From NCBI GenBank assembly GCA_907163375.1, contig CAJQUW010008587.1, positions 720,525 through 784,524 on the forward strand: a stretch of DNA of 64,000 nt. The letters are read 5' to 3'. Under the pieces are notes generated by a model that made no database searches, was not told the DNA's origin, and saw nothing but the letters and a program-made list of their open reading frames with translations. The translations under genes were made by a program, and so were the position numbers. Below are positions 1,927 through 38,820 of this stretch, piece after piece (the stretch's first letter is position 1; the number at the start of each line of letters is the position of its first letter). This DNA is from Prostheceraeus crozeri (Eukaryota > Platyhelminthes > Polycladida > Euryleptidae).

Positions 1927-3557
1927 CAGTCTGTTTCATAAAAAGTGGATCATCCTAAAATTTGACTAAATAAAACATAAGTATGATACAGAAAGAATTT
2001 TTTATGTTATTTCATGTCCGTAATATATTTAAATGTCCTTATATAATCTGATAAGCTATGATACAATAACGGTTCTTAACAAGCTAATATTTTGTGGCCC
2101 TACCCTTATTGTCAATGACATTACCAATTCGTCTAGGCATTGATTCGATGATATCGTTGATTTTTGACTGATCTAACTTTCTCCGCTCTCTTTTTAACAG
2201 TGACGTAAGTTGTGATACGCCATCTGTAGGTAGCAGTGAACGACGAACGTTACGTTCTATTCAGATAAGGAGAACGAGCTGGCCAAGATAATGTCCTAAG
2301 CCGTAATTGAGACTTGCATAAGTTGACTCTACTACTCCTGTGACACGTAGCATTATCATCCATAAATAACCAAGTCGATGGATCACCAAGTTGATCTGTC
2401 ATTTGGCCAATGTTCATTCGTAAAACATTCACATAGCGTTCAGAATTCATGGTTCCTTGCTGTATGTGAAGTTCAGAGCGGCCATTGGTCCAAATGCCAG
2501 CCCAAATCAGTAGAGTCGCACCACCTTGTACCCGGGGACGATGTAAATGTCTCGGAATTTCCTGATCAGATTTTATCCACAATCTCAATCGACCATCACT
2601 ATCCTTCAGACGGACTGATGCCTCATCAGACCAGACAACCCGATCCCATTGATTTCGCCAGTGACAATGACTCATTGCCCATCTGAGACGTCTTTTTGTA
2701 TGCTGATCTGATAATTCGATCTGAGAGGGCCTCTTACAGCTCTTGAAATTCGACTCAATAAGTCTTCTACGAATAGTGGACTTAGAAATAGACGAGACTA
2801 GTGCAGCCATCTCAGTTAACGAGAGACTTGGATCAACTTTAACAAATCTCAAAATTAGGCGGTCTCTACGTTTGGATGTTTTGCGTGGACGGCCAGAGCC
2901 CTCTTTACGACAGAGTCGAAGATCATCATTATGCCATCGATGCACATTTGTGTAAGGGACATTTAGTCGCTTGCTTGTAGCTCGCAAAGAAAACCCTAGT
3001 TCTAGCAAGCCTGACACTTTGCCTTTTGTGAATGTGATCTCGTTATTGTTCATTTGTGCTTTGTATTGTTTTCAACCGGTAAGAGATGGATTTCTAGCTG
3101 AAAGCAATCAGGAGTGCTGCCAACACCACCGCAACGAAGTCAGGAAGCTATGGAACATGAAGTCCAGTTAATCACATGTAGCAGTTACATTATTGTTGAT
3201 GAATAATGGTGCTATACTGGCTCTGATTGACCGATTTTCTTTATTTTTGTTTTGCTTGATAGCTTTTGGCTTGTAGAACAGCATATTACATAACAAAGGA
3301 AACAAATGTAATTTTATAAGAGTGAGGTATGATTTTGTGCAACATTGCTAAAGGAAGATCAAATTATCTGCTACTTTTTTTATCTATAACAGGAAAACAA
3401 CTCAATATTCATGCTTGAAATTTCCAACAATGATATTAGTAAGCACAACTGACAGGTCTTCCAAATTTCAGAGAAATTCGTTCAAGTTTGGCGGAGTTAG
3501 ACAAAATTGAAGTTAAGGCGATGTTTAAGGGTGATCCATTTTTTATGAAACAATCTG
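1927..3557 (-). mobile_element. Tc1-like DNA transposon with intact ends
   Basis: The two ends are inverted repeats of about 33 bp. The left end begins CAGTCTGTTTCATAAAAAGT, and the right end read on the minus strand begins CAGATTGTTTCATAAAAAAT. Each is flanked by TA (1925-1926 and 3558-3559), the Tc1/mariner target duplication. The interior holds one transposase on the minus strand, now broken (separate entry). The 1631-bp length is normal for the group. The ends look usable in trans even though the enzyme is dead. Confidence 0.92.
2084..3053 (-). pseudogene. Tc1-like transposase, broken at the third catalytic residue
   Basis: The enzyme would bind the element's end repeats and move it by cut and paste. 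From the ATG at 3053 it has an N-terminal helix-turn-helix region (FSLRATSKRLNVPYTNVHRW), a GRPRK AT-hook-like motif (GSGRPRKTS), and the first catalytic Asp in VVWSDEASV. The second catalytic Asp is in WLFMDDNATCH. The third motif should be SPDLNPIE but reads SPYLNRT and stops at 2250. The frame then resumes one register away as LPTDGVSQLTSLLKRERRK, then IIESMPRRIGNVI and GRATKY with a stop at 2084. That is the normal Tc1 C-terminus. A small lesion near 2245-2260 has thus removed the catalytic Glu of the DD34E triad. Confidence 0.9.
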
Positions 3558-36734: not shown

Positions 36735-36970
36735 TGTGTCTCCGTGGCACAGTGGTTAAATGCTTGGTCTAGCGATCTTTTGGTCCTGAGTTCGAGTCCC
36801 GAAAGTGTCATTGGAAGTCGGCAGGAAAGGCATCCGGAAAAAAATTCCCACAACGCTCCGGAAAGGTCTGACTGCGTGTAAGCCTCCAGTGTGGAGGAGC
36901 AGTGACGTCAAAACTTCCTTTACGTCCAACACTCAATGGGGTTAAATCGAGCAGTGAGAGTGAGTGAGTG
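36735..36970 (+). mobile_element. tRNA-derived SINE (family 1), best-preserved copy
   Basis: The head GTCTCCGTGGCACAGTGGTT is followed by B box GAGTTCGAGTCCC, then body GTGTCATTGGAAGTCGGCAG, CAACGCTCCGGAAAGG, TCTGACTGCGTG and CAGTGACGTCAAAAC. It ends in a GAGTGAGTGAG microsatellite tail. The head and internal promoter mark a Pol III-transcribed SINE. Confidence 0.88.
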
Positions 36971-37560: not shown

Positions 37561-37794
37561 TTATAAAATTTTGTTGACATCTTATTACTTTACCTTTTCT
37601 TATATATCTAAGTTAGATTAGTTGGATGTATATGAAAGATATTTGATTCTGTGAATAAATCATTTATGCCCTTGATAAGCCTGCCACAGGCAGAAGCCGG
37701 TCGGGCTGTTTCAGTTATCTGGCTTGTTTTTCTTTTATCTTTTGGGTGTCGTATTACTTTACATTATTGAATACCATTTTTGATTTAAACCTTT

Positions 37795-37796
<2 letters not shown>

Positions 37797-37876
<80 letters not shown>
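37797..37876. repeat. (AT)n microsatellite, about 80 bp
   Basis: Uninterrupted alternating AT directly abuts the 3' tail of hammerhead copy 1. The Ile-Tyr reading frame across it is an artefact. Confidence 0.97.
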
Positions 37877-37879
<3 letters not shown>

Positions 37880-37880
37880 G

Positions 37881-38042
37881 ACAAGTAACCTGGCAATTGA
37901 TAAATTTACCAAATCTCAACTGATGTAACCACCACGAGACATGTTTCGGCCTGTTCGGCCTCATCAGTCGTGGGTAGGTTTGAACCAGCGACGTCGGAGG
38001 TAGAGGACGTGCAAGCATACCCTCTAACCACAAGGCCACCGG
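37881..38042 (-). mobile_element. tRNA-headed SINE-like unit with hammerhead ribozyme, copy 1
   Basis: Read on the minus strand from 38042, the head is CCGGTGGCCTTGTGGTTAGA, with a D-arm-like A-box region, and an exact B box GGTTCAAACC follows. The hammerhead core comes next, then a tail (GAGATTTGGTAAATTTATC, then CAATTGCCAGG) that runs into an (AT)n tract. Over the shared ~135 bp it differs from copy 2 at about five positions by eye, so both are young. No protein is encoded, so it would need a partner's reverse transcriptase. The Pol III head suggests SINE-type transcription (inference). Confidence 0.85.
37927..37980 (-). ncRNA. Type I hammerhead ribozyme (copy 1)
   Basis: This is a self-cleaving RNA. 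On the minus strand the order is stem I 5' side AACC and CCACGA; core CTGATGA; stem II GGCC, loop GAACA, GGCC; core GAAA; then C-AT-G as a 2-bp stem III (A-U and C-G) ending in the cleavage triplet GTC. Stem I 3' side follows as TCGTGG, T, GGTT. Every invariant residue of the hammerhead core is present and all stems pair. The very short stem III resembles the minimal hammerheads reported from metazoan Penelope-like elements, which work best as dimers. AACC of stem I is also the end of the B box. Confidence 0.9.
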
Positions 38043-38219
38043 ACCATCTGTTGAGAGCGTGAATTAGCCAGGAAGGCACTGCTTTAACGCAGGCACGTGG
38101 AGGGCGGACTGCTTTTTGCAATCACTTAATACCGCATCCGAGATTGAGGCGCTTCACGCAGGCGCTACTCATTACATGTTTAGACAAGTAACCTGGCAAT
38201 TGATAAATTTACCAAATCT

Positions 38220-38354
38220 CCGGTGGCCTTGTGGTTAGAGGGTATGCTTGCACGTCCTCTAGCTCCAACGTCGCTGGTTCAAACCTACCCACGACTGATG
38301 AGGTCCAACAGGCCGAAACATGTCTCGTGGTGGTTACATCTGTTGAGATTTGGT
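38220..38354 (+). mobile_element. tRNA-headed SINE-like unit with hammerhead ribozyme, copy 2
   Basis: This has the same head, B box (GGTTCAAACC) and ribozyme as copy 1, on the opposite strand. It ends ...TTGAGATTTGG followed by a short (TA)n. Directly upstream (38182-38219) is an inverted copy of the tail that copy 1 has at its own 3' end (ACAAGTAACCTGGCAATTG and onward). The pair therefore forms a complex head-to-head palindrome with a shared flank, separated by about 140 bp of other sequence (38043-38181). Confidence 0.85.
38282..38335 (+). ncRNA. Type I hammerhead ribozyme (copy 2)
   Basis: The architecture is the same on the + strand. Stem I is AACC (38282-38285) plus CCACGA (38289-38294), pairing with TCGTGG (38325-38330) and GGTT (38332-38335). 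The core is CTGATGA (38295-38301). Stem II is GGTC, loop CAACA, GGCC, with one T-G wobble in place of copy 1's C-G pair. GAAA is at 38315-38318 and the cleavage triplet GTC at 38322-38324. A substitution that keeps the helix is consistent with selection on, or recent descent from, an active ribozyme. Confidence 0.9.
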
Positions 38355-38616
38355 ATATATATATAATATACTAATATGTACATACTCGTGCATTAGCTGT
38401 AGTAAAATGCACTCGCATTATCTATCGCCGCAACGTACTACTAGTGCGATGAATAGTCTCTGAAATCACCATCAACTGAATTTAGTAGTTAGAAGTAAAT
38501 CTAAGTCTGAAGACTTGGACTAAAACTAAGTCTAAACTCAGTTTGTGAGTTCTTTAAATGAATAAATGCAGAAAGCTAAGCTCCATCCTGTCGCAATTGC
38601 ATATCAATTAGGCCTA

Positions 38617-38820
38617 CAGATCTTTTTGAAGCTTCAGCGTCACTACTCCTCCACACTGGGGCTTGGGCGTTGCCGACACAGTCAGACTTTTCTGGAGCGT
38701 TGTGGTACTTTAAGTTTCTTCCTGCCAACTTCCAGTGACACATGTGGGGCTCGACCTCTGGACCAAAAGATCGCTGGGTCAAGCACTTAACCACTGTGCC
38801 ACGGAGACCATGGGAATCAT
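38617..38820 (-). mobile_element. tRNA-derived SINE (family 1), copy
   Basis: Minus-strand head GGTCTCCGTGGCACAGTGGT, B-box region CAGAGGTCGAGCCCCAC, then body CACTGGAAGTTGGCAGGAAG, CAACGCTCCAGAAAAG, TCTGACTGTGTCGGCAACG, CCCAAGCCCCAGTGTGGAGG and AGTAGTGACGCT. It lies 130 bp before a ferlin exon. Confidence 0.87.

Follow-up and report, generated by a model that had tools for sequence, protein, structure and literature searches.

The window analysed here is a 64,000-nt stretch of the Prostheceraeus crozeri genome. It contains two short inverted units, which an earlier note had described as separate 135-nt copies, each with a tRNA-like head followed by a hammerhead ribozyme that might allow a Pol III transcript to process itself or circularise. 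The locus raises the question of what kind of element carries this ribozyme and how it came to be inserted in both orientations at one place. The observation was confirmed, and its interpretation is partly supported.

Pol III-type boxes and ribozyme in the window copy

The two inverted ribozyme units proved to be both arms of one head-to-head insertion at 37878-38362 (Table 1). They do belong to a repeat family, as had been proposed, but they are not separate copies and the real repeat measures 303 nt. For the analysis of copies, the window copy was fetched as locus L008, and a window position equals the L008 position + 36716. In both units the B box is followed at once by a type I hammerhead (38276-38335 on the plus strand and 37986-37927 on the minus strand), just as the earlier note had stated. 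Alignment of one unit with the other over 134 nt showed 96.3% identity with five differences, including a T/C difference in stem II, which agrees with the approximately five differences reported before.

Table 1. Features of the insertion in the window (positions are those of the 64,000-nt stretch; cleavage sites are predicted).
Feature	Position	Strand	Remarks
Left arm	37878..38220	-	343 nt, more than one lap of 303 nt; L008 1162-1504
Left arm, outer 3′ end			site II type (CTTGTCTA); adjoins (TA)n
Tail (stretch between sites II and I)	37878..37904	-	left outer end only
Left-arm hammerhead core, CTGATGA to GTC	37938..37967	-	predicted cut between 37938 and 37937
Left-arm B box	37977..37986	-	
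Left-arm A-box-like sequence	38028..38038	-	
Remainder of the 303-nt monomer	38044..38180	-	from left-arm head to tail of previous lap; borders approximate; viewed alone, resembles a spacer between two copies
Right arm	38219..38362	+	144 nt; head-to-head junction, 2 nt common to both arms
Right-arm A-box-like sequence	38224..38234	+	8/9 constrained positions
Right-arm B box, GGTTCAAACC	38276..38285	+	final AACC is the 5′ strand of outer stem I
Right-arm type I hammerhead	38282..38335	+	predicted cut between 38324 and 38325
Right-arm hammerhead core, CTGATGA/GAAA/GTC	38295-38324	+	
Right arm, outer 3′ end			site I type (GATTTGGTA); adjoins (TA)n

The ribozyme has the conserved core and the stems I, II and III of a type I hammerhead, with an open stem I and a minimal stem III. 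Stem I consists of CCACGA/TCGTGG and AACC/GGTT around a UAC/U internal loop, and the 4-bp stem II reads GGTC/GGCC in the right unit and GGCC/GGCC in the left unit. Stem III, between GAA and GTC, is best read as one A-U pair closed by a palindromic CAUG loop (ACAUGU) instead of the 2-bp stem proposed earlier, since two base pairs would leave a loop of 2 nt. The ribozyme is predicted to cut after GUC.

Pair probabilities calculated with ViennaRNA were 0.62-0.99 for stems I and II and 0 for a cloverleaf T stem. AACC (38282-38285) paired with GGTT (38332-38335) with a probability of 0.77-0.92, and the claim that the outer stem I reuses the end of the B box was thereby borne out. When checked against the Rfam covariance models, both units matched RF02275 (Hammerhead_HH9) with 31.6 and 30.0 bits (E 6.7e-6 and 2.3e-5 in 801 bases), although neither reached the gathering score of 52; at gathering thresholds, tRNA was the sole match in the whole window. 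The stability of the 144-nt fold was unexceptional (z -1.71; 6/200 shuffles equally good), as was that of the 61-nt ribozyme part (z -0.59; 54/200 shuffles equally good), and the minimum-energy fold contains an extra 3-bp helix inside the core that is foreign to a hammerhead. Stem II varies mostly between U-G and C-G, in 17 and 8 of 26 sequences of the family respectively. No pair was changed on both sides among these 26 sequences, and covariation neither supports nor opposes the fold because the family is too young.

We searched the window for A boxes with at least 8/9 constrained positions followed at tRNA spacing by B boxes with at least 9/10. Four pairs were detected, namely a tRNA-Cys, a pair at 36745 and both units, whereas a Markov model predicts 0.03 per strand, which makes a chance origin unlikely. 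The head therefore has the A and B boxes at tRNA spacing that mark tRNA-derived SINEs. It does not show recognisable tRNA ancestry: ARAGORN found no cloverleaf in 11 loci of the element, Rfam detected no tRNA at E≤10 in 37700-38500 nor at E≤1 in L019, and the RNA is predicted to fold into a long hairpin. The description of the head as tRNA-like thus holds for the boxes and their spacing but not for a cloverleaf. The pair at 36745-36799 on the plus strand (9/9 and 9/10) is separate from the insertion and probably belongs to a different tRNA-type SINE. Just downstream of the insertion, at 38739-38812 on the minus strand, a tRNA-like SINE head was seen by eye and was called by none of the tools run.

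The overlap of B box and stem I looks like compact packing, with a DNA signal placed on an RNA helix. We found no published report of such an overlap in the open-licence literature searched. The combination of a tRNA head with a hammerhead is not new, as it is already described for schistosome repeats in the available sections of PMC4918200 and PMC2770079. The earlier suggestion of novelty can apply to the overlap and does not extend to the combination, and the choice of schistosome Sm-alpha as precedent was correct (PMC4918200, same sections). What appears to be new in the element is a predicted internal promoter that overlaps the ribozyme, probably as a variant on a known kind of retrozyme. 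The pattern of insertion ends is more informative than the box/stem overlap.

A 303-nt repeat family and the ends of its insertions

In the 2.05-Gb genome, the 135-nt unit is a portion of a 303-nt monomer that is repeated across the genome, often in near-identical tandem arrays. When 40 of 241 candidates were scored for a 136-nt unit query, at least 42 matches of 95-100% identity emerged, and 40 of these span nearly the whole unit. Many copies had the same junction of head and ribozyme, as the earlier note would lead one to expect; together with the covariance-model match below the gathering score, this puts the outcome of that note's refuting conditions mostly on its side. For the other half of the monomer, all 40 scored candidates out of 430 were 100% identical, many of them in arrays. 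Among 41 tandem monomers from four regions, 27 were exactly 303 nt long and 22 were identical to the majority sequence. The 13-position ribozyme core was intact in 39/44 full units (L008-L037), the A box in 39/44 and the B box in 39/44; these units are the best-scoring sample, which is biased toward young copies.

The monomer has a GC content of 50.5%, and TTTT is absent from the L019 monomer. In the predicted circle 63% of bases are paired, compared with 62% in shuffles (z -2.4). At 303 nt the monomer is far too short for a reverse transcriptase with a GIY-YIG endonuclease. As in retrozymes, a non-coding tandem repeat within approximately 170-400 nt carries one hammerhead per monomer. The retrozyme family is genuine and young, and the element is most appropriately classed with the non-LTR retrozymes, as a non-autonomous, non-coding retroelement with a 303-nt monomer. 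Classification as a MITE with terminal inverted repeats was dropped, given the tandem monomers and 5′-truncated copies. A pattern scan of viral contigs for head and core gave at least 120 stretches; the pattern was too loose, and these were taken as chance and not used. At L025:720-1309, five tandem pieces spaced approximately 130 nt apart consist of the head and its preceding stretch but lack the ribozyme; here a portion of the element has expanded into a satellite.

To locate the insertion ends, the monomer was rotated to begin after the ribozyme cut and 55 insertion blocks were mapped, four of which were excluded because a record boundary truncates them. The 51 blocks kept comprise 30 two-armed blocks, head-to-head with a 3′ end on both sides, and 21 blocks of one orientation (20 distinct, the flanks of L026 and L027 being identical). 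Of 81 outer 3′ ends, 43 fell at one site (site I) and 34 at another (site II), so that 77 are confined to two sites approximately 28 nt apart. Site I ends lie at monomer positions 28-38 (about 33 after the cut), following TTTGAT(AAA), and site II ends at positions 58-65 (about 61 after the cut), following CTTGTCT(AAA); these positions are good to approximately 5 nt, as the alignment can extend some bases into AT-rich flanks. Both sites are AU-rich. The remaining four ends were at positions 142, 185, 187 and 228, and none of the 81 was within 5 nt of the ribozyme cut.

The two sites are usually combined in one insertion. Twenty-six two-armed blocks have both ends at these sites: 23 pair I with II, two are I/I (L036 and L192) and one is II/II (L164). 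Independent ends would give approximately 13 I/II pairs (p ~3e-5, or 7e-6 without L164). Thus, 23/26 show inverted head-to-head arms with the tail on one side only, as in Penelope-type insertions. The flanks of the sole II/II insertion (L164:1316-2140) are mutual reverse complements, owing to a genuine palindrome or to an artefact of assembly.

By comparison, the inner junctions are scattered: 31 junctions had overlaps of 0-10 nt or gaps of up to 19 nt, and 3/62 of their ends were within 5 nt of the cut against approximately two expected. Arms reach 3483 nt (11.5 laps), and 40/99 mapped pieces are longer than 310 nt. In 6/20 distinct single-orientation blocks the insert starts near site I, which is consistent with a single trip round a circle. 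Because the sequence of site I is perfectly palindromic, these inserts may instead have a second arm of very short length.

A flank with (TA)5 or longer was present in 23/51 blocks, the window copy included, and these were left out of the duplication count because a duplication cannot be delimited there. Among the 28 blocks outside (TA)n, 14 had target duplications of 9-14 bp, 12 of them at least 10 bp long (L019, L020, L023, L028, L029, L031, L033, L036 (1495), L186, L193, L194, L196, L197 and L199), and the other 14 had none. When flanks were paired across insertions as a control, at least 9 bp was found in 17/752 and at least 10 bp in 8/752. The duplications exceed the 4 bp by which non-LTR retrozymes are recognised. 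Overall, no duplication was seen in 21/51 blocks, which weighs against the insertion model set out below.

Shared variants and the probable copying of one template

We compared the arms of 25 pairs with at least 60 common positions, masking positions 29-70 (which hides the L160 variant). Arms of the same insertion had 19 shared variants, compared with a mean of 4.7 on random re-pairing; the maximum in 2000 re-pairing trials was 14, and 0/2000 reached 19. It counts against copying from one template that 12/25 pairs had no shared variant, three of them because neither arm has one. The window's own arms, which differ at 5/134 positions, have no variant in common.

Laps were examined closely in nine loci. 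T59G was present in 6/6 laps of L160 and in 2/51 loci, A181G in 10/10 laps of L182 and in five loci, and C152T in 13/14 main-array laps of L185 and in four loci. T222G, found in 3/3 laps of L019, and A61G and G204A, found in both arms of L029, are each unique to their locus. No variant ran through the laps of L187, L188 and L189. Taken together, these patterns suggest that a single template gave rise to related arms and laps. Later homogenisation could also yield identical laps, and this counts against the model. A T/C difference in stem II (window 38304 and copies) recurs between the arms of several insertions, e.g. L018, L019 and L029, and looks as if the position had been read differently twice.

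We consider it likely, with a probability of roughly 0.7, that the element is a non-autonomous retrozyme inserted by Penelope-type copying of one RNA circle with priming at two sites. In a first step, the internal A and B boxes would recruit Pol III, and transcription would read through tandem monomers because the monomer has no TTTT. The hammerhead would then cut after GUC; as ACAUGU can pair with itself, the active form may be a dimer. A host tRNA ligase may close the products into 303-nt circles, for which the available sections of PMC7229834 offer a precedent. Finally, a Penelope-type enzyme would cut both strands of AT-rich DNA, and each broken end would prime cDNA on the same RNA circle, one at site I and the other at site II; two sites would be used because both ends prime on the same RNA and cannot share one site. 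Each cDNA would run for 0.1 to approximately 11 laps, several laps being possible because, in the simplest reading, the template RNA is a circle, and head-to-head joining would often leave a duplication of 9-14 bp. For this last step, the end sites, their pairing, the duplications, the shared variants and the laps come from sequence, while we infer the enzyme and the circular form. The window copy is a single event of the proposed process, in a (TA)n tract. The earlier idea of a self-processing or circularising transcript is in this way partly supported; we count it as right, with a putative circular form.

As a template for Penelope-type priming, a tandem locus could also have supplied a long multimeric transcript instead of a circle. 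Tandem arrays exist, and the anole Penelope-like element needed no ribozyme cleavage for insertion in vitro, where ribozyme mutants still inserted and uncut RNA was the main substrate (PMC11167929, available sections). However, in several insertions a rare variant is found in both arms and in almost all laps, so that a multimeric source would need an array already homogeneous for each variant. We regard such a source as unlikely, although a homogeneous multimeric transcript and a circle cannot be told apart for certain from genomic evidence.

Less probable by a clear step is a tRNA-type SINE with a hammerhead that a LINE moved from a linear Pol III transcript, its inversions being due to L1-like twin priming. 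Such an origin would account for the A and B boxes, the 5′ truncation and the duplications of 9-14 bp, but not for two fixed 3′ ends, usually one on each side, nor for arms of up to 11.5 laps, and the L019 monomer lacks a TTTT terminator. With L1-type twin priming a single class of 3′ end is produced and the other end is internal, a pattern unlike the two fixed ends seen here. A satellite spreading through DNA circles and recombination, with the hammerhead as a relic, would agree with the identical tandem monomers and the (TA)n flanks of 23/51 blocks but is very improbable in view of the precise end classes, the I/II pairing, target duplications above control and a core intact in 39/44 units.

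Two-site copying of one RNA circle may reach beyond this genome. By a narrow balance we favour the view that in animal retrozymes Penelope-type machinery primes both target ends at two fixed sites of one ribozyme-made circle, giving head-to-head rolling-circle arrays. If true, the tail signature would point to the missing partner of retrozymes, and the inverted copies of Penelope elements would gain a simple origin from two primers and one circle. The I/II end signature is a motif searchable in any sequenced animal with retrozymes and would allow the contribution of the ribozyme circle to transposition to be tested.

Comparable elements and candidate partners

The closest class is that of the non-LTR (metazoan) retrozymes (Cervera & de la Pena, 2020; PMC7229834, cited here from its available sections). 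Like the element, these are non-coding tandem repeats (approximately 170-400 nt) with a type I hammerhead, have target duplications of more than 4 bp and are predicted to form a circle of matching size. Their GC content is below 50% (below 45% in figure 1 of PMC7229834), compared with 50.5% here, and neither GC nor the paired share of the predicted circle distinguishes the element as it does the retrozymes of that report. The newt and axolotl hammerheads share the stem III of one pair with a palindromic tetraloop, and the axolotl ribozyme of this type cuts best as a dimer (PMC7229834); these retrozymes differ in sequence and repeat length, and the element has Pol III-type boxes. Pol III terms do not occur in the available text of PMC7229834, and the end sites and head-to-head twin arrays seen here are not described for retrozymes in it. 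Penelope-like elements are named there as a strong candidate only for moving animal retrozymes, and the available part of PMC7761336 reports that no conserved motif was seen in retrozyme repeats from which the autonomous partner could be deduced. The I/II end signature is a motif of this kind.

The schistosome Sm-alpha/Sj-alpha repeats are similar in joining a hammerhead to tRNA-derived sequence in a SINE-like, high-copy form (PMC4918200, PMC2770079 and PMC8490949, available sections). They contain a recognisable tRNA-Gln, whereas the element has boxes A and B only.

The insertions resemble those of Penelope-like elements. According to the available sections of PMC11167929, the anole protein favours AT-rich DNA, in which it cuts both strands and extends each of them, and it begins reverse transcription within the RNA, at two neighbouring sites separated by the length of the genomic tail. 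Both sites are in an AC-rich stem loop and no difference in start site between the strands was observed there, two points that count against the model proposed here. Rotifer Penelope copies are mostly head-to-head; of their two inverted pLTRs one bears a 31-bp tail, and duplications, where present, measure 8-10 bp (PMC3846280, available sections). Shared with the element are head-to-head arms, a tail of approximately 30 nt on one side, AT-rich targets, similar duplication lengths and a hammerhead near the priming sites (same sections of PMC11167929 and PMC3846280). Unlike Penelope-like elements, the 303-nt monomer has no room for a protein gene. Its ribozyme is full, with an internal loop in stem I, whereas Penelope hammerheads are usually minimal, and its start sites are AU-rich compared with AC-rich in the anole element (PMC11167929). 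We found no published report of Penelope-type ends in retrozymes in the open-licence literature searched. The sequence footprint suggests a link between retrozymes and Penelope-type priming and carries more weight than the promoter overlap.

GIY-YIG frames are frequent in the genome: a first look gave 11,858 candidates, and all 150 that were scored passed the cut-off. Some are 723-741 codons long in tandems of 3.1-4.0 kb. None of six GIY-YIG element regions compared with the monomer yielded an autonomous partner with sequence in common with sites I/II, which counts against the model. The best match of the six inter-frame regions to the monomer was at chance level (31 nt, 81%, E 2.6, in L205 inside a long frame); neither a string resembling the tail, with up to 8 edits allowed, nor an Rfam match at E≤1 was detected in them, and their two core-like strings are both within coding sequence. 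Head-to-tail GIY-YIG tandems were seen in G000 C7452, C7099, C6593, C1740, C1889 and C961. A long frame lies between two GIY-YIG frames and begins with MTRTF or similar in 5/6 regions; upstream frames gave no Pfam match in four regions and no PDB match in one.

The window also holds a Tc1/mariner-type transposase fragment of 273 codons (2250-3071, minus strand), with Pfam HTH_Tnp_Tc3_2 above the cut-off and DDE_3 just below it. The RF00163 matches at L001-L007 were considered as members of the same family and ruled out, as they have no blastn match to the monomer at E≤1. L001-L005 (G000 C2063, C6453, C8550, C11748 and C12005) form a second hammerhead family above the RF00163 cut-off, with a repeat of approximately 3 kb or more and an inverted 69-bp partial copy near the ribozyme, and L006 and L007 are its diverged relatives.
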